From: a virus
IMG/VR virus record: IMGVR_UViG_3300020281_001072
Location: 1-49,229 of that record
Direction: 5' to 3' (one strand)
Length of the DNA stretch: 49,229 bases
The notes under the pieces are model-generated. The model saw only the letters and a list, made by a program, of their open reading frames with translations. It searched no databases and had not been told where the DNA came from. Shown here in pieces: positions 2,621 to 42,508 of the stretch (positions are counted from its first letter, which is position 1; the number at the start of each line of letters is the position of its first letter). The translations under genes and the position numbers were made by a program.

Positions 2621-3813
2621 TGGAAGACTACAACTTTCAAGTATCCTCAGGAGTTAATATGAAGAAGGACAGTGTTAAGGGGATGACGGTATTTAATACC
2701 GACAAGATTAATACTAAGAAGCAACCAATGTTCTTTGGTGCTCCTTTAGGAGTTCAAAGATATGATAATTTTAAGTATCCTCAGTTTGATAAGTTGACTA
2801 CTATGCAACTGGGATACTTCTGGAGACCTGAAGAGGTATCCTTACAGAAGGATAGAGGAGATTATCAACAGTTACGTCCAGAGCAGAAGCATGTATATAC
2901 TTCTAACTTGAAGTATCAGATCATGTTAGATTCTGTTCAGGGTCGTGCTCCTGGTATGGCATTCATTCCTTACTGTTCACTTCCTGAGTTAGAATCATGT
3001 ATGGAAGTATGGGGTTTTATGGAGATGATCCATAGTAGATCGTATACTTATATCATTAAGAATGTATATCCAGATGCTTCTGAGGTCTTTGATACTATAC
3101 TAGATGACAAACGTATTTTAGATCGTGCTGCAAGTGTTACTGAGTCATATGATGAGTTCATTAACATAGCAAATGAATGGGGTCAGAGTAATAATTGGAA
3201 GAATGATTGGAAGGATCATATCAATGCAGAATGGACAAGAAAAGATTTAAAGAGAGCACTTTATAGAGCAGTAGCAAATGTCAATATACTGGAAGGTATT
3301 CGTTTTTATGTTAGCTTCGCTTGTAGTTTTGCCTTTGGTGAACTTAAGCTTATGGAAGGGTCAGCTAAGATCATATCCCTTATTGCACGAGACGAGAACC
3401 AACACCTTGCGTTGACACAGAATATAATAAACTTCTGGAAGAAGGGTGATGATCCAGAGATGGTTAAGATAGTTAAAGAAGAGGAAGATTGGACATATAA
3501 GATGTTTGATAGGTGTGTGAATGAAGAAAAGGCATGGGCAGAGTATTTGTTTAAAGATGGAAGTATGATAGGATTAAATGACAAACTACTTCAGCAGTAT
3601 GTTGAGTGGATTGCCAACCGTCGTATGAAATCTATTGGTTTAAAACCAGCATACGATATACCTGCTAAGAATAATCCACTACCTTGGACAGCACACTGGA
3701 TCTCTTCTAAGGGATTACAAGTAGCACCACAGGAGACAGAGGTTGAGTCCTATGTTGTTGGTGGTATTAAGCAGGATGTTAAAAAGGACACCTTCTCAGG
3801 ATTTAAATTATGA
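2620..3813 (+). CDS. nrdB: Ribonucleotide reductase class Ia, small (beta) subunit
   Basis: 397 residues. Houses the diiron centre and tyrosyl radical used by NrdA. Seen: LDSVQGR, the helix ESCMEVWGFMEMIHSRSYTY with its Glu and His ligands and the radical-type Tyr after HSRS, and ARDENQHLALTQ with the second Glu/His pair. The C-terminal tail ending FSGFKL is of the type that docks on the large subunit. The ATG overlaps the nrdA stop by one base, so the two are translationally coupled. Its own stop overlaps the next small reading frame. Confidence 0.97.
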   Translation: MEDYNFQVSSGVNMKKDSVKGMTVFNTDKINTKKQPMFFGAPLGVQRYDNFKYPQFDKLTTMQLGYFWRPEEVSLQKDRGDYQQLRPEQKHVYTSNLKYQIMLDSVQGRAPGMAFIPYCSLPELESCMEVWGFMEMIHSRSYTYIIKNVYPDASEVFDTILDDKRILDRAASVTESYDEFINIANEWGQSNNWKNDWKDHINAEWTRKDLKRALYRAVANVNILEGIRFYVSFACSFAFGELKLMEGSAKIISLIARDENQHLALTQNIINFWKKGDDPEMVKIVKEEEDWTYKMFDRCVNEEKAWAEYLFKDGSMIGLNDKLLQQYVEWIANRRMKSIGLKPAYDIPAKNNPLPWTAHWISSKGLQVAPQETEVESYVVGGIKQDVKKDTFSGFKL

Positions 3814-3887
3814 CTACATTTATAGTATGGGTATGTATTACGATTCTGTTGTACATATTTTTGAAAAACTTTATTAATCATGCGTAA
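3810..3887 (+). CDS. Candidate 25-residue single-pass membrane microprotein
   Basis: ATG overlaps the nrdB stop (ATGA) and the stop overlaps the following ATG at 3880, so it fits exactly into an overlapping gene chain. The product starts MTTFIVWVCITILLYIFL and then carries a short KNFINHA tail: one hydrophobic helix with a positively charged end. No family recognised. The tight coupling at both ends supports it being translated, but at this size chance cannot be excluded. Confidence 0.45.
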   Translation: MTTFIVWVCITILLYIFLKNFINHA

Positions 3888-4584
3888 GTACATTTTTGAT
3901 GTTGATGGGACTCTGACCCCTAGTAGGAAGAAGATTGAATCAGAGTTTGCAGAATTCTTCCTAGAGTTTATTAAAAACAATCATGTCTCTCTGGTTACTG
4001 GTAGTGATCGTGAGAAGACTTTAGAACAAGTTACACCAGAGATTTATAATTCTTGTAAGAGAGTTTATAATTGCTCTGGTTCTGATGTATATGAAGGGGA
4101 TCTTATTGTCTATAGGAATGACTGGGAGTTACCTAAAGATGTAGAGAGATTCTTACAAGATGAATTAGATTTTAGTCAGTTCCCAATTCGTAATGGTAAT
4201 CATATTGAGAGAAGACCAGGTGGAATTAATTTTAGTATCTTAGGTAGAGATTCTGATCCAATGCTTGGTAGGAAAGAGTATATTAGTTGGGATAATATTC
4301 ATAGTGAGAGGAAGTTTATATCATTAAGAATAATGGATATGTTCCCTGATATTACTGTAGCACTTGGAGGACAGACAGGTATAGACATTGGACCAAAAGG
4401 ATCAGATAAGAGTCAGATTCTAAGAGACTTTGATAAGACTGATGATGTACACTTCTTTGGTGACATGATGAATGAGGGTCAGAATGACTATCCTTTAGCA
4501 ATGGCAATACTTGATAATATGATGGGCACAGTTTATAATGTAGAAGATTATAAAGAGACTTGGAAATTATTACTAAATATTTGA
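3880..4584 (+). CDS. HAD-family phosphatase/mutase resembling eukaryotic-type phosphomannomutase
   Basis: 234 residues. HAD motif I is clear near the N-terminus (IFDVDGTLTPSR, with nucleophile and acid/base aspartates), motif II is in LVTGSDREK, and the C-terminal HFFGDMMNEGQNDY resembles the FFGD..(N)D loop of HAD type IIB proteins such as eukaryotic phosphomannomutase (interconverting mannose-6-phosphate and mannose-1-phosphate). A mutase role would feed GDP-mannose into the gmd/fucose pathway at 14-16 kb, but the genes are not adjacent and a sugar-phosphatase role is equally possible. The family assignment is good; the substrate is inferred. Confidence 0.75.
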   Translation: MRKYIFDVDGTLTPSRKKIESEFAEFFLEFIKNNHVSLVTGSDREKTLEQVTPEIYNSCKRVYNCSGSDVYEGDLIVYRNDWELPKDVERFLQDELDFSQFPIRNGNHIERRPGGINFSILGRDSDPMLGRKEYISWDNIHSERKFISLRIMDMFPDITVALGGQTGIDIGPKGSDKSQILRDFDKTDDVHFFGDMMNEGQNDYPLAMAILDNMMGTVYNVEDYKETWKLLLNI

Positions 4585-5607: not shown

Positions 5608-6012
5608 ATGATTCCAATTCCTTTAGTATGTTTAATGTACTCTACTCTCGATCCATCTGAGTACGTAGAGATAGCAAGAGTAGTACAAGTTGAAGCATAC
5701 CGACATTCTAACGATGAATACGGTGTTGCTGCTAATGTTATGAACCGAGTTGCATCTGACGACTTCCCAGATTCTATACAGGGAGTTATAAATCAACCTC
5801 ATCAATATGAAGGTTTAAAGAAATTTCCGAATAGAGAGATAGATCCAGAATTAGTCGCAAAGTTATCATCACCCAAAGGGCAACTTGGTGTTTGTAATGC
5901 TCTGAATAAATTGGAAGGACGTAAGTATTTTAAGGGACAATCACAACTATATAATAGGGTTCCAGAAGAGGACCCCATGTTCCACCCTAATGGAAATTTT
6001 TATCACCACTGA
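5608..6012 (+). CDS. SleB-type cell wall hydrolase
   Basis: 134 residues. The pattern IARVVQVEAYRHSNDEYGVA, then NVMNRVASDDFPDSIQGVI, QPHQYEG and the terminal NFYHH follows the SleB/Hydrolase_2 family: catalytic Glu in the first helix, VxNRV...FP...V core, C-terminal aromatic/His end. Members cleave peptidoglycan (lytic-transglycosylase-like). A short hydrophobic N-terminus (IPIPLVCLMY) precedes the domain; it is too short for a convincing signal peptide. Probable role: lysis or wall penetration. It is not next to a recognisable holin. Confidence 0.75.
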   Translation: MIPIPLVCLMYSTLDPSEYVEIARVVQVEAYRHSNDEYGVAANVMNRVASDDFPDSIQGVINQPHQYEGLKKFPNREIDPELVAKLSSPKGQLGVCNALNKLEGRKYFKGQSQLYNRVPEEDPMFHPNGNFYHH

Positions 6013-6017
6013 CGATT

Positions 6018-6350
6018 ATGGACTTAGACAAGAACGAAGGTATTAAGTATGTTAAGAGGGAAGACCTCGGAGATTTTGGTGCAGATAATATTGATGGGTT
6101 TATGAATTACATTGCCCAAGAGATAGGGGATGATGAGAATTCAATCCTACCTGCTGTAATGCAAAAAAATACTGAGTCGATGGCATTGTATAATATGTCA
6201 AGAGCTCATCGTGAGAATTTAGATACTGTTACAGGTGCTCCTACTAAAGGATATGACAATAAGAACTTTGATGATTATGATGATCATCCTAAGTTTGAGC
6301 AGAAGAAAGAAAATCAATTCTTCTCAGATCATTACACACCTAAGAGGTAG
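6018..6350 (+). CDS. Hypothetical acidic protein
   Basis: 110 residues, hydrophilic and rich in Asp, Asn and Lys, beginning MDLDKNEGIKYVKRED. The C-terminal third (DYDDHPKFEQKKENQFFSDH) looks disordered. It sits 5 nt behind the hydrolase gene and directly before a strong promoter. No family recognised. Confidence 0.65.
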   Translation: MDLDKNEGIKYVKREDLGDFGADNIDGFMNYIAQEIGDDENSILPAVMQKNTESMALYNMSRAHRENLDTVTGAPTKGYDNKNFDDYDDHPKFEQKKENQFFSDHYTPKR

Positions 6351-25934: not shown

Positions 25935-26098
25935 AATTAAGAGAACAGGCAATTAAGATCCTGTACAAGAATTTCGGACAAGATGATACAATATATGCAT
26001 GTGCTGATGAGTGGTGTAGGAAGCAAGTAACCACTGCAGGACTTGTCAATTACTACAAGGCGTATTATAATCAGATCAAAGAAACTGCTAAATTATGA
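25916..26098 (+). CDS. Small soluble hypothetical protein
   Basis: 60 residues, charged and helical (MEEQQIELREQAIKILYKNF), two Cys in YACADEWCRK. Overlaps the peroxiredoxin start by 4 nt, so coupled. Unknown function. Confidence 0.55.
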   Translation: MEEQQIELREQAIKILYKNFGQDDTIYACADEWCRKQVTTAGLVNYYKAYYNQIKETAKL

Positions 26099-26589
26099 TA
26101 CCTAATGTAAAATTTAATTTTAAAGGTGATGGTGGTCCATTGATTAAGACCTCTCAAGATCTTTTTGATAATAAGAGAGTAGTTTTATTTTCTTTACCTG
26201 GTGCCTTTACTCCTATATGTTCTACTAAAATGCTTCCTGCATATGAGAACCTATACTTAGAGTTTGAATCACTTGGAATTGATGAAGTCTATTGTATTGC
26301 AGTCAATGATTGTTTTGTAATGGATGCATGGGCAGAGGATCTCTTTATTAAATATGTGAAGTTGATTCCTGATGGTAATGGAGACTTTACCAAAGGTATG
26401 GGAATGTTAGTTTCTAAGAGTAATCTTGGATATGGTAATCGTTCATGGCGTTATGCTGCAGTGATTAATTCTGGTGAGATTGAGTGGTTAAACTCAGAAC
26501 CTGGAATGAAATCTAATGCAACAGAAGATCCATATGAACTTACTAAACCAAGTAAAGTTCTCGAATATTTAAAATCAGTTGCTAAATAG
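26095..26589 (+). CDS. Peroxiredoxin, Prx5/type II-like
   Basis: 164 residues. PGAFTPICS (35-43, peroxidatic Cys42) and a downstream SWRYAAVI...GEIEWLN match the Prx5 family, which reduces H2O2 and alkyl peroxides using glutaredoxin or thioredoxin. A second, resolving-type Cys is not clearly placed; C67 and C73 (YCIAVNDC) are the candidates. Plausibly guards against oxidative stress from continued photosynthesis during infection. Confidence 0.9.
   Translation: MIPNVKFNFKGDGGPLIKTSQDLFDNKRVVLFSLPGAFTPICSTKMLPAYENLYLEFESLGIDEVYCIAVNDCFVMDAWAEDLFIKYVKLIPDGNGDFTKGMGMLVSKSNLGYGNRSWRYAAVINSGEIEWLNSEPGMKSNATEDPYELTKPSKVLEYLKSVAK
26582..26588 (+). promoter_or_regulatory. Late-promoter-like box CTAAATA
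   Basis: Overlaps the peroxiredoxin stop and lies 21 nt before the next start (26610). Confidence 0.5.
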
Positions 26590-28243: not shown

Positions 28244-28621
28244 ATGACAACAATAACCAAATACAAACACGAAATTATGTGGTGGATGAGTAGACTCACA
28301 ATAATGATTTGTTCATTATTTTTATCTTTTTCATTAGCAGCATCAGCATATGCTGCAGATATTCAAATGGGTGCTAATGGCAACCTAATATTTGAACCAA
28401 ATGAAGTCACCGTTAATGTTGGTGATACAGTTACATTTACTAATGGGGATTTACCTCCTCACAATGTAGTATTCCTTGACAACCCAGAGTTGTCACATTC
28501 TGATCTAGCATTTTCACCAGGTGAATCATTTAATGTTACCTTTACTGAAGCAGGTAATTATGAATTCCAATGTGAACCTCATGCTGGTGCAGGTATGAAG
28601 GGTGTTATTCACGTAGAGTAA
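28244..28621 (+). CDS. petE: Plastocyanin
   Basis: 125 residues. Signal peptide with core MICSLFLSFSLAAS and cleavage after AYA/A (about 37-38), for export to the thylakoid lumen. Type 1 copper ligands are intact: H73 (PPHNVV), C110, H113 and M118 in CEPHAGAGMKG, spacing CxxHxxxxM. Carries electrons from cytochrome b6f to photosystem I; phage copies help keep electron flow during infection. Mature length (about 87) is slightly short for plastocyanin (about 98). Confidence 0.95.
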   Translation: MTTITKYKHEIMWWMSRLTIMICSLFLSFSLAASAYAADIQMGANGNLIFEPNEVTVNVGDTVTFTNGDLPPHNVVFLDNPELSHSDLAFSPGESFNVTFTEAGNYEFQCEPHAGAGMKGVIHVE

Positions 28622-33189: not shown

Positions 33190-36100
33190 ATGGGAACCTT
33201 CCGTAAGTCTCTTAAGCGTGGAGATACCTCTCGTCAAATTGAGGAAAATCTTAAGAAATTAAACAAAGATTTAAAAAGAACTGAGTCAGTTTTACCTACC
33301 GAGTCTGCAGAGACTGAGGGTAAAAAATTTGACTGGAGGAAGGAATTTTTTCCTGCAGAATCTGATCGTGTAACAGATGTTAAACATGCATTAGCAGAAG
33401 AAGTAAAAGAATTACGGGATGTTGTAGAAGCAAAAAAAGAGATACGTAATTTACAGAGAGTAGATAAGCATTTAGCAGGAGCAAACGCAGATTTTTATAG
33501 ACTTCGTGATGAGTTAGTTGAACAGATTAATACTGATTTTAATCTTCGTGAGATTGAAGCAAAGTTAGATGAGATATTAGGTGTCTATGGTAAACTTCAT
33601 CAAAGAATAGATGAGGGTTTATTAAATGAACCACCAGAGTCTGCACAAAATGGTGATCCATTAGCACCACTTGGTCAGAAGTTTGTTACCTTTGAACAAC
33701 TTAGGAATCATTACAGTCTATTCATTAATAGAATATCTAAGCAACTCTCCACTCTAGGTGGCGGTGGTGAAGTTAACTTCCGTTACTTGGATGATGTTGA
33801 TTGGGATGGTGCTGATGATGATGGTAAGTTTTTAAAATATAATCATAGTACAGAGAGATTTGAATTCGCTACCGTATCTGGTGGTGGAGGTGGTGGTGGA
33901 AGTATCGCTGGTATTGATACCACAGGTACATCATTCTTTAATAATATAAATGCTGCTGGAGTTGTAACTGCCACAGCATATTATGGTGATGGATCAAACT
34001 TAACTGGTATTGCAGGAACAACTATTGCTACCTATGCAAATGTAGCAGGGATTGCAACCTATGCAACCAATGCAGGTATAGCATCTAATGCAACCATTGC
34101 AACTGCTGCTGGTACTGCTGAAGTAGCAGGAACACTGACAACTTCTTCATCAGTTAATACTTCTGGTATTATCACTGCAGCAAACTTCTATGGTGATGGT
34201 TCAGGATTGACTGGTATTACTGCATCAGGAACTGGTGTTGTTATTCAGGAAGAAGGTAGTAATCTTGGAACAGCATCAACAATTAATTTTGTTGGTACAT
34301 CTGTTACAGCAACCTTCAGTAGTGGTACAGCAACAATTAGTCTCACAGATAATGTTGGGACTGCTGGTACAGGAGCACTTGCTGGTATTGATACCACAGG
34401 TGATTCAGTTTTTACTAATATAAATGCGTCTGGAATTGTTACATCTTTAGGTGGATTTAGTGGTAATATCACAGGTACTGGTGCAACATTTACTTCAATC
34501 ACTGGTGCTTTAACGGGGGATGTTACTGGTACTGCTTCATTAGCACAAGGATTATCTGGTTCACCTACCATAACGGTTACTGGTATTGGTGCTTCAAGTA
34601 TTAATTCTACTGGTATTGTAACTGCTAGTGCATTCTATGGAGATGGATCTAATCTTACAGGTCTTGTATTTGGTGGTGGTACTGTATTCAGTGGTATTGT
34701 TACCTTCCAATCTAATGCGGAATGGGGAGAGAATGATAAGGCAGCGTTCGGTACAAATGCAGATCTTCAACTTTATAATGATGGTTCGGCATCATATGTG
34801 TCAGAGACAGGTACAGGAGATTTAATATTAAATTCAAACGGAACGAATATAAATCTTAAGTTTAATAATAGTGATCTTGCTGCTAAGTTCCAGATTGATG
34901 CAGGTATAGATCTCTACTATGATAATGTAAGTAAGATGGCAATCCTGAGTACAGGTGCTACTACTTACGGTACTCATAGAGCATCTGAATTTGTAGGTGG
35001 TGGTTCAGGTATAACTGGATTAAGTACATCACAACTTAGTGGATGGGAAAACATTCCAATTGGAATAGCAAGTAATACTAGTATTGTTACTAGTGGAATT
35101 ATTACTGCTGCAGGTTTTAATGGTGCATATACTGGAGATGGATCTGCTTTAACTGGTATTGCTACACCAGGATATGTTGATGCTGCTGTTGCTGGTATCG
35201 TATCTTCAGCACCTGCAACTTTGGATACATTGAATGAATTAGCTGCAGCATTGGGAGACGATCCAAACTTCAGCACTTCAATGACCAATTTGATTGGTAC
35301 AAAAGCATCTCTCGCTGGAGCAGCATTCACTGGAAATGTAACTTCTACAGGATATGTTAGTGCTGCGTCTACTGCTGGTATAGGTGGTAGGTTATATGCA
35401 AATGAGAGAGTTTATATTGGTCCTGATAATGCATTCCATTTATCTTATGCTACTGTAGGTAATCCTGTAACAGAAAGATATTGTTATATTGATGGTGGAC
35501 ATGCTTATGGTGATACTGTATTAAGAGTTAGACATACAAACGGTGGTAAAGTTGAGATTACTAATGCAGGTAATCTAAAGTCTGCTGTCTTTGATGGACA
35601 AGGATCTGCTGAACTCTACTATGGGGATGTTAAGCGTCTTGAAACTTCAAATACGGGTGCTAATGTTATAGGAATCCTTAGTGCAACAGGACAAATAAAG
35701 TCTGACACATTAGATGTTACTGGTAATATTTCTGGTGGTAGTTCTATAACTGCTGCGAATAAGTTCTATGGTAATCTTGTAGGTAATGTAACTGGTGATT
35801 TAACTGGTGGACTTATAGGTACAGGTGATATTGGTGCTACAAATATCAATGCTCTTGGTATAGGTACATTCCAGTCTGCTGAGATTAGGAATTTAAGATT
35901 AGGAACATATGGAACAAATAATATTTACGGTGTAGGTGGTCCTTTATATCTCGATTCAGAAGTTGCTCAAGTTGATATTGTTAATCATCTTAAGGTTAGT
36001 GGTATAGCAACCTTCCATAAAGATGCAGTATTTACTCAAGATGTTGTTGGTTTATCCAGTGCAAACTTTACTGGAATTGTTACAGCACAGAAGTTTGTTG

Positions 36101-38529
36101 GTGATGGTTCATTACTTACTGGTATAGGTGTTACTCTTGCTCTTAATGATCTAAGCAATGTTAATGCTGGAACACCAACTGATGGTCATGTTCTTAAGTG
36201 GGATAACTCTTCTGGTAAGTGGGTTGCTGCTGCTGATTTAACTGGTTCTGGTGGAGCAGGTATTGCATTGACATCATTGTCTGCATCTAACGCAGCACCT
36301 GCTGGTATTGCAACCTTTAATTATAATAATACAACTGGTGTATTTACATATACTCCTGTAGATCTCAGTAGTTATCTGACAAATTCAATTAGTCAGAATG
36401 TATCAATGAGTAATGGGTATACGTTTACCTACGACTCATCTGCTGTTGCTAGATTTGGTAGTGTTGGTGCAAGTAATTATGGTGATATATTCTGGGGTAC
36501 TAATAATTCTACTACTGGACTTCATGTAATTAATAGTGATACTGATGGTGGTTTATATCTTACAAACAGTGGTACAGGTGGAGTATTCATTAGATTTAAT
36601 GGTGAGAATCAAGCATCATTTATTCCTAATGGTGCAGCGAATCTGTTCTTTAATAATGTACTTAAGTTCTCTACAACTGAAGAAGGTATATCCATAGCAG
36701 GTGATACAGTATCAACTGGTGCTGCTAACTTTGCTGGAATTGTTACTTCTGTTGCTGGATTTAAGGGAGATCTTACAGGAACTGCAAGTTATGCAACCAA
36801 TTGTGGAGTCGCAAGTACTTCAAACTATGCTACCAATGCATTGTCAGCAAATACTGCTGGTACTGCAGGTGGATTAACAGGTGATCCTTCAGTTACAGTT
36901 ACACAATTAAATACTCTTGGTGATGCTTATGTTGGTGCTGGACGATCAATGTATGTTGGTGGTGTCCTAGGTGTTAGGGATAATGTTCAGATCACTGGTC
37001 AGTCTCCAATATTAAAATTAGAAGATGATCAATACTTTAAGAAGACTGCTACCTTCCATATGGATGGTAACACAAGTGATGGTTTAACTATTGGTCTTAG
37101 ATTAGATAACAATGCATCTAACTTTAGAATTTGTGATGAAGGTAGTGGATCAATAGGAACTAGCTTCCTTAATATTACAGGTGGTAATCCAAGTAATGCT
37201 GACTACGGTAACGTAGGTATCAATAGTGCAATACCCAAGTATCAACTTGATGTTCATGGAGATGCTAGATTCACACAAGCAATTACGGGTAACTTAACTG
37301 GTAATGCAACAGGATTAAGTGGCACACCTACTATTGATGTTGCAAACGTAACTGCTGGTATTATAACTGCAAATAATTTTGTTGGTGATGGATCAGGATT
37401 AACTAATGTTACTGCTGCTGGATCTGGTGTTGTTATACAAGAAGAAGGATCTGCTGTTGGAACTGCAGCAACAGTTAACTTTGTTGGTACAGGTATAACT
37501 GCAACTATATCAGGTGGTGTTGCTAAAGTTGAGGTAACTCAAGATTGGGCAAACAAAGCAGGAATGGCAAATGATGTCGTTGATAATGCTAAGTTATATC
37601 TTGGTGATAGTACTGCTAGTAACCTATACGTAGATGGTAAGATTGGTATAGGAACTACATGGTCTAACACATACTCAATCAATGCTACTGGTAAGGCAAG
37701 ATTCTATGGTGGACATATCTGGATGCCTTGGAATTCCAGTGGAAGTTTGGTCATGGAGAATGCCCATGATGCATATGCTGCTCTGTATACAAGTGGTAAG
37801 AATCATCTTGTTATACAAAATTCAGGTACATTAAGTATAGGTAGGACAACACCTGATGGTAATGCAGGGGTGTCTATTAATAGTTCAGTATCTATTGCTG
37901 GTTCTGTAACCTCTGCTAATACATTCTATGGTGATGGTTCTGGATTAACTGGAGTTACTGCTACTGGAACTGGTGTTGCTATTTGGGATGAGGGATCTGT
38001 TACTGGTACTGCTACTACACTTAATTTTGTAGGTGCTGGTATTACTGCAAGTGTTGCTTCTGGAACAGCAACTATTACAGTCACCAATGCTTCTCAGGGT
38101 TTATGGGAGACAGATGCTGCTGGTATTCATACCACATCTAAAGCAGGTATAGGTACTGATAAAGTTCAAGCATCTGCACAACTTCAAGTTGGTGCTACTT
38201 ATGGTGTTCATTCTGGAGTTGGAACATTTGCTGGAACTGCTGGTACTCCTGCAGATTTAGATTCATTTAATAAATCAACTGATAACTTTAAGACTGCTGA
38301 GTATACATTGCATATTGGTTTTGGTACTTACATGCAATCGCAGAAAGTTCTTCTCATGCAAGATGGAACAAATACATATTCTAGTGAATATGCAGTAATG
38401 CATACACCAGGACAGGTAGTATCTGTTGGATCTACAATCTCTGGTAATGATGTTAAGTTACAAGCAACTCCTGTATCAGGAATCAATGGTTTAATTACTT
38501 ACAGATTTGTAAGGGGAACACTGGTTTAA
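33190..38529 (+). CDS. Very large repetitive virion structural protein, tail-fibre-like
   Basis: 1779 residues. N-terminus (1-150) is charged coiled coil (EENLKKLNKDLKRTES; AKLDEILGVYGKLHQRIDE), a short domain containing FRYLDDVDWDGADDDGKFL, then a poly-Gly hinge near 235. The body is built of repeats: seven blocks with the core Y/F-GDGS-x-LTG (near 33980, 34190, 34640, 35130, 36100, 37385, 37930), three followed by SGTGVVIQEEGS-like segments, and Ala/Thr ladders such as AGIATYATNAG. The C-terminus ends in a compact domain (VSGINGLITYRFVRG). This architecture suits an extended adhesin or fibre on the virion; a receptor is unknown. Confidence 0.85.
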   Translation: MGTFRKSLKRGDTSRQIEENLKKLNKDLKRTESVLPTESAETEGKKFDWRKEFFPAESDRVTDVKHALAEEVKELRDVVEAKKEIRNLQRVDKHLAGANADFYRLRDELVEQINTDFNLREIEAKLDEILGVYGKLHQRIDEGLLNEPPESAQNGDPLAPLGQKFVTFEQLRNHYSLFINRISKQLSTLGGGGEVNFRYLDDVDWDGADDDGKFLKYNHSTERFEFATVSGGGGGGGSIAGIDTTGTSFFNNINAAGVVTATAYYGDGSNLTGIAGTTIATYANVAGIATYATNAGIASNATIATAAGTAEVAGTLTTSSSVNTSGIITAANFYGDGSGLTGITASGTGVVIQEEGSNLGTASTINFVGTSVTATFSSGTATISLTDNVGTAGTGALAGIDTTGDSVFTNINASGIVTSLGGFSGNITGTGATFTSITGALTGDVTGTASLAQGLSGSPTITVTGIGASSINSTGIVTASAFYGDGSNLTGLVFGGGTVFSGIVTFQSNAEWGENDKAAFGTNADLQLYNDGSASYVSETGTGDLILNSNGTNINLKFNNSDLAAKFQIDAGIDLYYDNVSKMAILSTGATTYGTHRASEFVGGGSGITGLSTSQLSGWENIPIGIASNTSIVTSGIITAAGFNGAYTGDGSALTGIATPGYVDAAVAGIVSSAPATLDTLNELAAALGDDPNFSTSMTNLIGTKASLAGAAFTGNVTSTGYVSAASTAGIGGRLYANERVYIGPDNAFHLSYATVGNPVTERYCYIDGGHAYGDTVLRVRHTNGGKVEITNAGNLKSAVFDGQGSAELYYGDVKRLETSNTGANVIGILSATGQIKSDTLDVTGNISGGSSITAANKFYGNLVGNVTGDLTGGLIGTGDIGATNINALGIGTFQSAEIRNLRLGTYGTNNIYGVGGPLYLDSEVAQVDIVNHLKVSGIATFHKDAVFTQDVVGLSSANFTGIVTAQKFVGDGSLLTGIGVTLALNDLSNVNAGTPTDGHVLKWDNSSGKWVAAADLTGSGGAGIALTSLSASNAAPAGIATFNYNNTTGVFTYTPVDLSSYLTNSISQNVSMSNGYTFTYDSSAVARFGSVGASNYGDIFWGTNNSTTGLHVINSDTDGGLYLTNSGTGGVFIRFNGENQASFIPNGAANLFFNNVLKFSTTEEGISIAGDTVSTGAANFAGIVTSVAGFKGDLTGTASYATNCGVASTSNYATNALSANTAGTAGGLTGDPSVTVTQLNTLGDAYVGAGRSMYVGGVLGVRDNVQITGQSPILKLEDDQYFKKTATFHMDGNTSDGLTIGLRLDNNASNFRICDEGSGSIGTSFLNITGGNPSNADYGNVGINSAIPKYQLDVHGDARFTQAITGNLTGNATGLSGTPTIDVANVTAGIITANNFVGDGSGLTNVTAAGSGVVIQEEGSAVGTAATVNFVGTGITATISGGVAKVEVTQDWANKAGMANDVVDNAKLYLGDSTASNLYVDGKIGIGTTWSNTYSINATGKARFYGGHIWMPWNSSGSLVMENAHDAYAALYTSGKNHLVIQNSGTLSIGRTTPDGNAGVSINSSVSIAGSVTSANTFYGDGSGLTGVTATGTGVAIWDEGSVTGTATTLNFVGAGITASVASGTATITVTNASQGLWETDAAGIHTTSKAGIGTDKVQASAQLQVGATYGVHSGVGTFAGTAGTPADLDSFNKSTDNFKTAEYTLHIGFGTYMQSQKVLLMQDGTNTYSSEYAVMHTPGQVVSVGSTISGNDVKLQATPVSGINGLITYRFVRGTLV

Positions 38530-38535
38530 AGTATT

Positions 38536-40635
38536 ATGTCGAAGAAGCGTTATGCCGTCGGATGTACTGCTCCAGATGATTGGAAGTACATTCATGAAGA
38601 GTTAAGTAAAGATGGTTCCTTAGAAGATAATATACCATCTGAAGCAATTACAGTAGATGATTTAAAAGAACATAGTGCAACTAGAGCAGTTTATATGCTC
38701 ACAGATGAGGAAGCAGAGGATGTTAAAAAACATCCTAAAGTTTTATATGTAAACTTAGCACAGGAAGATTACTCTCCTCCTGCTGATGAGTTAATGTCGG
38801 ATCAGACATTTAGATATGCACAAACAGTAAAGAACCATAGAGATTATTATGAATTACCTTCCACACCTGATGATACTGATCTGAGACGTACAGGGTTTCA
38901 ACTTTATAGACATTCACAATTAGATGATCCTTGGCCTCATACTTCTACTGGAGATAATACAGTTTTAAATAATAGAATTTTGCATGAGGGTGATGGTAGA
39001 GATGTTGATCTTATTGTATGTGATGAAGGATGTTGGTTTGGTCATGTAGAATTTCAAACTGATAGTAATGGTGGTGGACCTGATAATTACATAGATGGTA
39101 ATGTATTAACTAGAAGTGGTATATCAACTACTAGTGGTACATGTGACCTATGTGATTTAATTTTAGAAGCACCGTACTATCTTGACCCAGACTTTTTTAA
39201 TGCATCTCCAAGTACTAGATTAGAGACTAGATGGGATGGAACTACTGTTCCTGTTGAGTCAGTAGCAAGGAACTGGTGGAGATTTAGTAGTGCATCATAT
39301 CGTTCAGTTGGATTCTCTACATTTGGAACTGCAAATGTAAGTACAAGTTATAGTAGGATTAGATGTAATGGTACAAATGATTCTCTAGCAACCAATGGAA
39401 GTTATCATGGCACACAATGTATGGGTGCTAGTTGTGGTAGGACACAGGGTTGGGCATTCAATGCTAACAAATGGAATTTAAATTTATATGGTGGTTATGG
39501 GTCTGGTATTGAAGCAGGATTTGATGCTCAGAAGTTGTTCCATCAAATGAAACCAGTTAATCCTAAGTATGGTACTCAAGATCCAACAGTCTCAAGTAAC
39601 AGTTGGGGATATCGTGCAGTACCACAAGATGAGGCATATTATTATTATCATGGAGATACTAATGGTGTCTCTTATTCTTCATCTGCTAATCGTAGTCCCT
39701 ATAGTTCTAGTAATACTAAACCTGGATTTATGAGGTGGATTGGTTATCATGGTGATGGTTACAGGTGCAAGGGTCAATTATTCCCAGACAGTATGACACA
39801 AGCTGCTGATGAATTAATTGAGTCTGGTGTTATATTTGTTTGTGCTGCTGGTAATAGTAATCAGAAGCAAGTTAGTTGGGATCATCCTGACTTTGATAAT
39901 TACTGGAATACTGGTGCAGGTGTTACTGTTGGTAGAAATAATTTTTATGAGTTTGGAAAACAAACGTATCCTTATACTAATAGAAGAGGATTCCCACAGC
40001 ATGCAGGGATGACAAGATCTGGTGTAGGTGGAACAGTATATACTTATCCAGCAATTAATATTGGTGCTCTTGATGATGGTTATGGACTTGAAGATGGGGT
40101 ATATAAAGAGAGGAAAGTAAATTATAGTGATATGGGTAATGAGATTGATTGTTATGCTGCTGCTGATGGTATAATTACAGCAGTCAATTCTACTTCAGGT
40201 ACTACAAGACGGGATACGTATACTAATAGCAGTTATAGTAGTTGGGTTGATGGTAGATTTAGTGGAACCAGTGCTGCTTGTCCTGTAGCAGCAGGTATGA
40301 TTACTACCAAGATGCAATACAATAGAGATTGGACTTGGGAGGATGTTAGGAATTGGTTAAAGGGTAAAAACCAACCAGTTGGTGTTGCTACTGTTGGTAT
40401 TAATACTAGTGGTGAGTTTCATCATGGATCAGATACTCAGGTTTCTGGTGCAGGTGATATTAGTACTGGTCCTTGGTCAGATACTAATAGTTTAGAGGGT
40501 TCTTATCCTGCAATTATTTGGGATGCTCCTACTGGTAACGAGGATGGTCCTGACGAGACACCAAATGCTAAGACCATTAGTGGTCAAGGTATGAGATTCA
40601 CAGGTGGTGGATTAAAAATAGTTTACCGTTCATAA
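38536..40635 (+). CDS. Subtilisin-like serine protease (S8), virion-associated
   Basis: 699 residues. The catalytic triad is complete: D163 (LIVCDEG), H291 (SYHGTQCMG), S579 (SGTSAACPVAAG), with oxyanion Asn440 in CAAGNSN. N-terminal residues 1-85 resemble a propeptide (AVYMLTDEEAEDVKKHPKVL). No Sec signal peptide is seen. Six bases behind the giant structural gene and before a fibre gene, so it probably acts on or in the virion: processing of fibre precursors or degradation of host surface protein. Which of these is inference. Confidence 0.92.
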   Translation: MSKKRYAVGCTAPDDWKYIHEELSKDGSLEDNIPSEAITVDDLKEHSATRAVYMLTDEEAEDVKKHPKVLYVNLAQEDYSPPADELMSDQTFRYAQTVKNHRDYYELPSTPDDTDLRRTGFQLYRHSQLDDPWPHTSTGDNTVLNNRILHEGDGRDVDLIVCDEGCWFGHVEFQTDSNGGGPDNYIDGNVLTRSGISTTSGTCDLCDLILEAPYYLDPDFFNASPSTRLETRWDGTTVPVESVARNWWRFSSASYRSVGFSTFGTANVSTSYSRIRCNGTNDSLATNGSYHGTQCMGASCGRTQGWAFNANKWNLNLYGGYGSGIEAGFDAQKLFHQMKPVNPKYGTQDPTVSSNSWGYRAVPQDEAYYYYHGDTNGVSYSSSANRSPYSSSNTKPGFMRWIGYHGDGYRCKGQLFPDSMTQAADELIESGVIFVCAAGNSNQKQVSWDHPDFDNYWNTGAGVTVGRNNFYEFGKQTYPYTNRRGFPQHAGMTRSGVGGTVYTYPAINIGALDDGYGLEDGVYKERKVNYSDMGNEIDCYAAADGIITAVNSTSGTTRRDTYTNSSYSSWVDGRFSGTSAACPVAAGMITTKMQYNRDWTWEDVRNWLKGKNQPVGVATVGINTSGEFHHGSDTQVSGAGDISTGPWSDTNSLEGSYPAIIWDAPTGNEDGPDETPNAKTISGQGMRFTGGGLKIVYRS

Positions 40636-40655: not shown

Positions 40656-41630
40656 ATGGCAGATAGAAGTTTTGGCGTAAGGGAGATTGCGATTGTAGGT
40701 TCAGGTGGAACTCCTACAATTGAGAGTCCTGGTGCAATCAATTTAGATTCTCACTCTGTTGCGATTAGTACTGATGCAACTATAGGTAGGAACTTAAAGG
40801 TTGTTGGTATAACAACTGTTGGTGTTGTTACTGGTGGTACATATTATGGTGATGGATCAGGGTTGACTGGTATTAGTGGATTGTCTTCTGTATTCTTAGA
40901 CACCACACCAAGACTTGGTGGTGACTTAGATCTTAATAGTAAGTTTATAACTGGATCAGGTGGAGCAAATATTACTGGTGTTATTACAGCAACTACATTT
41001 AAGGGTGCGGTCACTGGTGATGTAACTGGTAACTCAGATACTGCAACCTCTGCAACAACAGCAGGGTATGCAACCACAGCAGGAATATCAACAACCGCTC
41101 AGGGATTAACTGGAACACCAGATGTTACAGTTCAAGATATTAATAATCGTTCTGTTAATGCTAGTGGAATTATAACTGCTGTTAATCTTAAGAGTACTAC
41201 TAGTGCAGTACTTAATGGACTTACCTATCCTACAAGTGACGGGAGTCTCAATGAAGTCTTAGTTACTAATGGATCGGGTACTCTTAGTTTTTCAGGTACA
41301 CCTAGACCAGATCACAACGTAGCATTTGTTGTAACTGCTAACGGTCAATCTGCATATAGAATATCAGGTGGTGGATCTAATGCTTCAACTGATAATCCAA
41401 CCATTAATTTATTCAGAGGATTTACATATAGATTCCAGAACCAAGCAGGTGCTGCTCATCCATTTGAGATTAGATTAGGAAATAATGGTAATGCTGTTAC
41501 TGCTGGTATTGCTGGTACTACAACAGGATTTTTATTCTATACTCCACAACAAGCATTGTCTGCTGGTACAGCATATGTTTATCAATGCACACAACATCCA
41601 GGTATGGTAGGTACAATCAACATTTTATAA
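40656..41630 (+). CDS. Fibre-like structural protein with C-terminal cupredoxin domain
   Basis: 324 residues. N-terminal part shares the giant protein's elements: TYYGDGSGLTGISG and an Ala/Thr ladder (TATSATTAGYATTAGISTTA). Residues about 225-324 form a cupredoxin-like domain: AFVVTANGQSAYRI, INLFRGFTYRFQN, AAHPFEIRLG with H268, and YVYQCTQHPGMVGTINIL with C311, H314, M317. CxxHxxM is the spacing of the copper site in amicyanin. All four type 1 copper ligands are therefore present. Role of copper on a fibre is unknown. Confidence 0.8.
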   Translation: MADRSFGVREIAIVGSGGTPTIESPGAINLDSHSVAISTDATIGRNLKVVGITTVGVVTGGTYYGDGSGLTGISGLSSVFLDTTPRLGGDLDLNSKFITGSGGANITGVITATTFKGAVTGDVTGNSDTATSATTAGYATTAGISTTAQGLTGTPDVTVQDINNRSVNASGIITAVNLKSTTSAVLNGLTYPTSDGSLNEVLVTNGSGTLSFSGTPRPDHNVAFVVTANGQSAYRISGGGSNASTDNPTINLFRGFTYRFQNQAGAAHPFEIRLGNNGNAVTAGIAGTTTGFLFYTPQQALSAGTAYVYQCTQHPGMVGTINIL

Positions 41631-41662: not shown

Positions 41663-42508
41663 ATGACTGCGTTGATAGACCCAAGTTTATATACAAAGAC
41701 CGTAAACGAATTACGGTCTTTTTTTGTATCTAAAGGATTTTTAGAAGTCCACACACAGAATCGTTTAAGTATTCTCGCTGCCTGTGAAGACCCAGAGACA
41801 GTAGCAACTTACAATTATAATGGTCAGATTTGGCCACTACCTCAAACAGGTCAGATGTGGTTAGAATATGAATTACTTTCTAATCCTTCTGCGGAAGGAT
41901 TTTTTTGTGTCTCTACTTCATATAGGCAGGAACCAAATCCTGTACCAGGTAGACATGAAGTTATCTTCCCAATGTTTGAGTTTGAGATGAAGGGAGATGT
42001 TATTGCTTTAGAAAATTTATTGGTTGAATTATGTGAATGGTTTGGTAGACCATATAATGAGATGTGTAATCAAACTTATAAGTTCTGGCAAGAAGAGTTT
42101 CAAGTAAATGAACTAGAACATGAACATGAAGCAGAGATTGAATGGGGTATGATTAAAGACTTCCCTGAATTCACATCACCCTTCTGGAATATGGCAAGGA
42201 ACAAAGATGGGACTAGTAAAAAAATTGATGTAATCTTAGATGGTAAGGAGACTATAGGTAGTGCAGAACGCAGTACTGATAAGGAACAGATGCGTGATAC
42301 ATTCCATACTATCACTGAGGGTAAGTATGCCCAATTACTATACGATCTATTTGGTAAGGAGAGGGTAGAACAGGAACTAGAAGACTTCCTTAGTTTTGAT
42401 TTCTTCCCCAGATCTGGTGGAGGTATTGGGATGCAACGTTTGATGTCTGCCTTCTATGGTAAAAATGGAGCAAGACCATCAAGATTTAATCGCCCTCCTT
42501 GTGGGTAA
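41663..42508 (+). CDS. Class II aminoacyl-tRNA synthetase-like protein (AsnRS/asparagine synthetase-related core)
   Basis: 281 residues. Class II core motifs: motif 2 FCVSTSYRQEPNPVPGRHEV (R88, E90, H98) with FPMFEFEMKG, and motif 3 SGGGIGMQRLMSAF (251-264). The WPLPQTGQMWLEYELL stretch resembles the Q..Q.E amino-acid-binding segment of AspRS/AsnRS. There is no N-terminal anticodon-binding domain, as in archaeal-type asparagine synthetase relatives of AsnRS. It may make asparagine or aminoadenylate, or charge a specific tRNA. A tRNA with Asn anticodon lies 32 nt downstream. An intrinsic terminator is embedded in codons 11-21. Confidence 0.82.
   Translation: MTALIDPSLYTKTVNELRSFFVSKGFLEVHTQNRLSILAACEDPETVATYNYNGQIWPLPQTGQMWLEYELLSNPSAEGFFCVSTSYRQEPNPVPGRHEVIFPMFEFEMKGDVIALENLLVELCEWFGRPYNEMCNQTYKFWQEEFQVNELEHEHEAEIEWGMIKDFPEFTSPFWNMARNKDGTSKKIDVILDGKETIGSAERSTDKEQMRDTFHTITEGKYAQLLYDLFGKERVEQELEDFLSFDFFPRSGGGIGMQRLMSAFYGKNGARPSRFNRPPCG
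41695..41725 (+). terminator. Intrinsic terminator inside a coding sequence
   Basis: AAAGACCGTAA-ACGAA-TTACGGTCTTT, an 11-bp perfect stem followed by a run of T (41719-41725). It lies within the first codons of the synthetase-like gene, so it could end transcripts arriving from the fibre gene or attenuate the synthetase gene itself. Confidence 0.8.

Follow-up and report, generated by a model that had tools for sequence, protein, structure and literature searches.

A predicted cupredoxin domain with a type 1 copper site in tail proteins of marine cyanophages

Cupredoxins, which include blue copper proteins active in photosynthesis and respiration, are known as soluble carriers, as membrane-linked carriers, and as domains of enzymes. 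Their type 1 sites hold copper with very high affinity and keep it buried. In azurin, plastocyanin, and amicyanin, the first histidine ligand is usually followed by an asparagine of the second coordination sphere, and in azurin-like proteins the residue at this position tunes the hydrogen bonds to the copper-thiolate. Glutamine is a known alternative to methionine as the axial ligand in stellacyanin-type proteins. Phage fibres and spikes are also known to have their ends stabilised by metal ions, as exemplified by the iron sites of T4 gp37 and by the iron or zinc sites of PAAR and spike proteins. In the full-text open-licence literature (titles, abstracts, and some passages), we found no account of a cupredoxin as a virion part, and an earlier report elsewhere is possible. 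As far as we have found, it is the use of a cupredoxin as a module of virion fibres that is new, cupredoxins themselves being well described.

The window analysed here is the whole stretch of 49,229 nucleotides from IMG/VR virus record IMGVR_UViG_3300020281_001072. This 49-kb record carries psbA, petE, and purC together with ferredoxin, ribonucleotide reductase, and sugar genes, and for this reason we consider the window to be a fragment of a marine cyanophage genome. The gene under study (positions 40656 to 41630, plus strand) is an ORF coding for a fibre protein of 324 amino acids (P0001) with a C-terminal cupredoxin domain. Two genes upstream is the gene for a large tail-fibre protein of 1779 amino acids (33190 to 38529, plus strand), which has PHROG tail fiber matches. 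The gene directly upstream (38536 to 40635, plus strand) codes for a subtilisin-like S8 protease (Pfam PF00082, E = 1.6e-13) in which the D, H, N, and S motifs are present (residues 159-165, H291, the N437 region, and the S579 region), and a gap of 20 bases separates it from the fibre gene. On its other side, the fibre gene precedes a gene for a class II synthetase-like protein (41663 to 42508), which belongs to PHROG 29758 of unknown function and weakly resembles asparagine synthetase A and the aspartyl- and lysyl-tRNA ligases. This ORF was listed from position 41585, and its likely start is at 41663. Elsewhere in the window, a genuine plastocyanin gene, petE (28244 to 28621, plus strand; NCBIfam TIGR02656 at 96 bits against a cut-off of 87.85, and PHROG 515 at E = 2.8e-47), served as an internal yardstick for the fibre cupredoxin domain. 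Near petE, a peroxiredoxin-like gene (26095 to 26589; PHROG 2281) codes for a further redox protein of the same phage.

The fibre protein begins with a short module (residues 1-44, sequence MADRSFGV..., positions 40656 to 40787, plus strand) that is 49-74% identical to its counterparts in other fibre proteins of cyanophages and is a probable attachment module. A shaft follows (residues 45-216, positions 40788 to 41303, plus strand), which is recognised from its GDGS-type fibre repeats and from PHROG tail-fibre matches. The remainder (residues 217-324, positions 41304 to 41627, plus strand) is the cupredoxin domain, as delineated by an AlphaFold2 model, by Foldseek and VIA-align matches, and by a profile match to amicyanin. 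At the level of the whole protein, PHROG 677, named 'baseplate wedge tail fiber protein connector', matches residues 94-323 with an E-value of 4.5e-24 over positions 206-408 of the 412 in its profile.

The four candidate ligands are encoded on the plus strand at 41457 to 41459 (His268, the first histidine ligand), 41586 to 41588 (Cys311), 41595 to 41597 (His314), and 41604 to 41606 (Met317, the axial ligand). Cys311 is the only cysteine among the 324 residues, and Met317 is the only methionine besides the initiator. The first-pass annotation had placed an amicyanin-like copper site at the tip of this fibre protein, and the ORF, its coordinates, the four residues, and their C-x2-H-x2-M spacing are all as it described.

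The fold that this proposal implies is also the one predicted. AlphaFold2 yields a confident all-beta cupredoxin, a Greek-key beta-sandwich, with a mean pLDDT of 87.7 that rises to approximately 95 within the domain (most of residues 221-324) and is low in the linker only. The top Foldseek matches of this model are rusticyanin, amicyanin, purple cupredoxin, and plastocyanin, so that type 1 copper proteins lead its matches among solved structures. VIA-align ranks a copper nitrite reductase first, by its N-terminal cupredoxin domain (Z = 10.0, rmsd 2.4, 93 residues), followed by rusticyanin (Z = 8.4-9.6), and proteins of the cupredoxin fold fill the first 50 rows.

Profile searches point in the same direction. 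A profile built from 46 homologous domains matches amicyanin in the PDB with E-values of 9e-6 to 3e-5 depending on the chain, plastocyanin at 2e-4, and copper nitrite reductase at 4e-4, and it places the four fibre-domain ligands in register with those of amicyanin. By this alignment, the four side chains would converge on one site. A smaller profile of 12 rows reached amicyanin only at an E-value of 0.01. Within the window, the strongest match of the 46-domain profile other than the fibre domain is petE, as befits its use as an internal control. Antibody light chains that appeared in the first PDB searches were rejected as chance matches to a beta-sandwich with a Y-x-C sequence, and they are gone from the leading hits obtained with the deeper profile. 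On the strength of the predicted fold and the ligand conservation described below, the C-terminal domain is very probably a cupredoxin with a type 1 copper site.

Family models recognise the domain to a lesser extent. No NCBIfam model, including those for amicyanin (TIGR02657) and plastocyanin, matches P0001 at E-values up to 0.1. The Pfam model PF00127 (Copper-bind) scores the window domain at 14.0-14.3 bits, which is below the gathering cut-off of 21.2, and at E-values up to 0.1 it matches 26 of the 46 relatives, the best at 5e-4. In addition, the residue after the first histidine is proline (Pro269 in the window protein) in 98% of the 46 domains, whereas the window petE has the customary His-Asn pair. 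Because proline replaces asparagine at this position, the predicted site would be expected to have an unusual and probably high reduction potential. The description of the site as amicyanin-like thus applies to the spacing of the loop and to the top profile hit, but not to the family model or to the residue that follows the first histidine.

The ligands persist in both close and distant homologues. Among the 46 viral domains, which share less than 85% mutual identity, exactly seven of approximately 100 columns are invariant (G238, H268, Y309, C311, H314, M317, and G319). All four ligands are among them, with a naive hypergeometric probability of 9e-6 when relatedness is ignored. In a set of 48 domains with less than 70% identity, the ligand sets are His-Cys-His-Met in 42 and His-Cys-His-Gln in three, and the remaining three have lost Cys, His, and Met jointly. 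Therefore, 45 of these 48 retain all four ligands, the axial residue being Met or Gln. The loop itself varies somewhat in length, with C-x4-H-x2-M in two close relatives and C-x2-H-x3-M in one distant copy, and this variation resembles that which separates known cupredoxins.

Some loci had originally been collected with patterns that contain the Cys-His motif, and the test was repeated without the motif by gathering loci only through the N-terminal 400 residues of a related gp9 protein of approximately 500 residues. Every locus gathered in this manner, unless a contig edge ended it before the motif, closes in a domain with all four ligands. Chance or search bias as the source of the ligand conservation is excluded by this N-terminus-based search together with the invariant columns.

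The three distant copies in which Gln replaces Met as the axial ligand are found in L007 (residues 194-303 of the ORF at 4435), L033 (the ORF at 776), and L211, and one of them resides in a protein whose C-terminal copy retains Met. The copies that have lost Cys, His, and Met together belong to large fibre proteins (L206, L207, and the 958-residue ORF of L204), at least two of which also hold an intact copy. Such concerted loss is what would be expected of residues that act as one metal site. The same three distant copies presumably still fold, and fibre proteins often recruit beta-sandwich domains, such that the domain could instead be a metal-free adhesion domain that is a cupredoxin by descent only. 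We consider this very unlikely, since a complete ligand set is maintained in nearly all of the divergent domains while the residues next to the ligands vary freely.

Searches with the window domain (tblastn) retrieved 260 phage records, essentially all of them from cyanophages, and most of the matches listed carry the label gp9 or 'baseplate wedge tail fiber connector'. When the more typical domain of phage P-SSM4 was used as the query, 335 records were found, of which 327 bear the name Synechococcus, Prochlorococcus, or cyanophage. By way of comparison, a search with gp8, a baseplate wedge protein of S-SZBM1, retrieves 458 records so labelled, although setting 327 against 458 is a rough guide only, because the counts include duplicate and near-identical isolates. 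Profile scans of whole records yielded one to five domain matches per phage in P-SSM4, syn9, S-RIM14, P-SSM5, P-SSM2, P-HM2, Bellamy, S-H9-2, and P-RSM6, among others, and likewise in the podovirus P-GSP1. The same scans detected no domain in S-PM2, P-SSP7, the pelagiphage HTVC008M, the freshwater phage S-CRM01, or T4. For the T4-like marine cyanophage S-PM2, this result was obtained with a full-sensitivity scan of the whole genome, and the domain is consequently not essential for infecting marine Synechococcus. BFVD matches also include predicted 'beta-sandwich proteins' of cupredoxin-like type from giant viruses that resemble pithoviruses and marseilleviruses.

The domain is attached to proteins of several kinds. 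The start of a typical cyanophage gp9 (L037) matches residues 2-40 of T4 gp10 (E = 5.8e-7), with a weaker match to T4 gp9, and because of this resemblance most carriers are probably baseplate wedge proteins. One of the domain-carrying genes is S-SZBM1_206, whose product of 498 residues shares 52% identity with the window domain. This product was detected by mass spectrometry in CsCl-purified particles with nine peptides and an emPAI of 0.98, which is similar to the emPAI of 1.37 for S-SZBM1_204, a baseplate wedge protein of 511 residues (PMC9146016). The N-terminus of this virion-detected homologue is unlike that of the window protein. The MADRSFGV... start of the latter is instead common to fibre-cluster proteins of S-SCSM2R, S-SSM7, Sf-CH8, and other phages, whose genes each come immediately after a subtilase gene.

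A third arrangement is found in ACG-2014e and ACG-2014h (L245, ORF at 4036, and L246, ORF at 3829), where a subtilase is fused to a C-terminal cupredoxin domain that keeps the four ligands. Given its occurrence in gp9-type, MADRSFGV-type, and subtilase-fused proteins, the cupredoxin domain is a mobile module that has been joined to several tail proteins. Its proposed location at the tip of the fibre holds only in the sense of a C-terminal position in the window protein, and not for the proteins of P-GSP1, P-SSM5, and Sf-CH8, in which the domain lies near the N-terminus of a longer protein.

The association with proteases raises the possibility that the cupredoxin, through its copper state or by docking, positions the adjoining S8 protease or regulates it. 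A subtilase gene is located directly upstream of the MADRSFGV-module gene in 14 of 14 inspected loci (tandem pairs occur twice, in L015 and L016), and the two fusions would fit such a partnership. However, most carriers are of the gp9 type with no subtilase annotated alongside, and the adjacency tracks the N-terminal module rather than the cupredoxin. A regulatory partnership with the subtilase is accordingly quite unlikely.

A different question is whether the domain might be an auxiliary photosynthetic plastocyanin that lies in a fibre cluster by chance. A homologue in S-SCSM2R is indeed annotated as PetE, and petE is a weak hit of the fibre-domain profile (E = 0.002-0.008, or 1e-4 with hhalign). 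This identity is barely credible and was rejected, since the domain is fused to a fibre shaft, has no signal peptide, and has another loop spacing, the phage possesses a separate bona fide petE, and a homologue (S-SZBM1_206) is detected in virions. Derivation of the domain from the phage's own petE was rejected as well. Pairwise BLASTP recovers only a loop of 19 residues at an E-value of 0.01, and the hhalign link is at the level of the superfamily. Judged from these sequence comparisons, separate recruitment or deep divergence is likelier than such a derivation.

Two side observations concern petE annotations. The S-SCSM2R protein annotated as PetE (L106, positions 5800-6306; 168 residues) has the MADRSFGV N-terminus and is a cupredoxin of the fibre cluster, not one of the plastocyanin type; some cyanophage petE calls may therefore be wrong. 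A search of cellular genomes with petE returned one fragment, on a contig of a gammaproteobacterial MAG (TMED78; L217, positions 3001-3108), in which a stretch of 36 residues shares 75% identity with the beginning of the phage petE. This contig is probably a mis-binned cyanophage contig.

With regard to function, comparisons of the window with its closest relatives, which are few, give a dN/dS of approximately 0.39 for the domain and 0.14-0.18 for the shaft and the rest of the protein. A third pair (L001 and L003) has no such difference (0.229 versus 0.236). Substitutions are located beside both histidine ligands, with AA, GS, or SS preceding H268 and Q, A, or L as well as P, G, or S around H314, while the ligands themselves are fixed. 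This combination of fixed ligands, variable neighbours, and faster change of the domain suggests a head that contacts the host. In such a scheme, the type 1 site would hold copper acquired from the lysed host or from seawater, and the metal would pin the loops that lie at one end of the beta-sandwich. Around this metal face, the variable residues could then touch the host surface, and the domain would act as a copper-clamped head for recognition or adhesion on baseplate or short-fibre proteins. That the copper is mainly a structural clamp for a host-contact head is a tentative proposal, to which we assign slightly less than an even chance. As an overall explanation, a type 1 cupredoxin that serves as a building block of cyanophage baseplate or short-fibre proteins and forms a copper-clamped host-contact head is the best available, with a somewhat better than even chance of being correct.

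Alternatively, the copper might be redox-active in the virion and switch its oxidation state, from Cu(I) to Cu(II) or back, at the surface of the host or on exposure to light and reactive oxygen, and in this way gate adsorption or set off a change in the baseplate. The complete type 1 ligand set is used for electron transfer in known cupredoxins. In addition, P-HM2, which has several domains, does not adsorb in the dark, while P-SSP7, which has none, infects in the dark (PMC7112961). However, this dark-adsorption contrast rests on two phages, and the predicted site has no known redox partner. Furthermore, light-dependent adsorption to Synechococcus WH7803 has been described (Jia et al. 2010, as cited in PMC7112961), reportedly for S-PM2, and the domain is absent from S-PM2. 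Owing to this absence, light-gated adsorption is given low weight. Redox activity of virion copper is thus unlikely, and it is still less likely that cyanophage baseplate or short-fibre proteins bear redox-active blue-copper centres whose oxidation state gates attachment or triggering and thereby couples infection to light or to the redox state of the host.

Another conceivable use of the metal is as a lure or as a result of scavenging, in which copper-loaded fibres would exploit a copper-uptake or copper-binding protein on the host surface by analogy with the iron 'Ferrojan horse'. Iron-bearing phage tail fibres have been proposed in the literature, and a predicted metal binder that tail proteins carry, with one to five copies to a genome and chiefly among marine cyanophages, would be compatible with this idea. 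Yet type 1 sites, given how tightly they bind and bury their copper, are ill suited to donation, and we regard this use as decidedly unlikely. We retain the copper-clamped host-contact head as the preferred reading.

If copper is bound, the tails of very common marine viruses would carry several copper atoms per particle, which would bear on the way cyanophages recognise and breach their hosts, and perhaps on copper in the sea. H268, C311, H314, and M317 offer a single testable residue set for a family that is currently labelled 'baseplate wedge tail fiber connector' or 'hypothetical protein'. The domain is widespread, occurring under the name gp9 in hundreds of cyanophage records, and this breadth extends beyond what could be seen from a single sequence. 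These observations also serve as a warning that cyanophage petE calls can be fibre proteins.

Among known systems, amicyanin (Paracoccus; the PDB 1aac family) shares the C-x2-H-x2-M loop, the Y-x-C and M-x-G positions, and the order of ligands with the fibre domain. Unlike amicyanin, the fibre domain fails the amicyanin family model, has Pro in place of Asn, and is part of a fibre protein that lacks a secretion signal. Plastocyanin has the cupredoxin fold and the ligand set in common with it, and hhalign aligns the domain with petE over 64 columns at an E-value of 1e-4. However, plastocyanin is a soluble protein with a signal peptide and a C-x2-H-x4-M loop, whereas the fibre domain has a C-x2-H-x2-M loop and resides within a tail protein. 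The window petE, which meets the plastocyanin model, has this longer loop and a signal-peptide-like N-terminus. The closest folds, namely the copper nitrite reductase domain and rusticyanin, share only 20-24% identity with the fibre domain and are enzymes or soluble electron carriers. Among phage proteins, PHROG 677 and the cyanophage gp9 proteins are homologous to the C-terminal half of the fibre protein, and the complete homologues inspected have the same terminal domain, but the window protein differs from a typical gp9 in its MADRSFGV... start and in that residues 1-93 fall outside the PHROG 677 match. Finally, the metal sites of T4 gp37, PAAR, and spike proteins are formed by histidine clusters or mixed ligands that hold Fe or Zn in needles or cones, whereas the fibre domain is predicted to provide a cupredoxin site in which a cysteine thiolate would bind copper.
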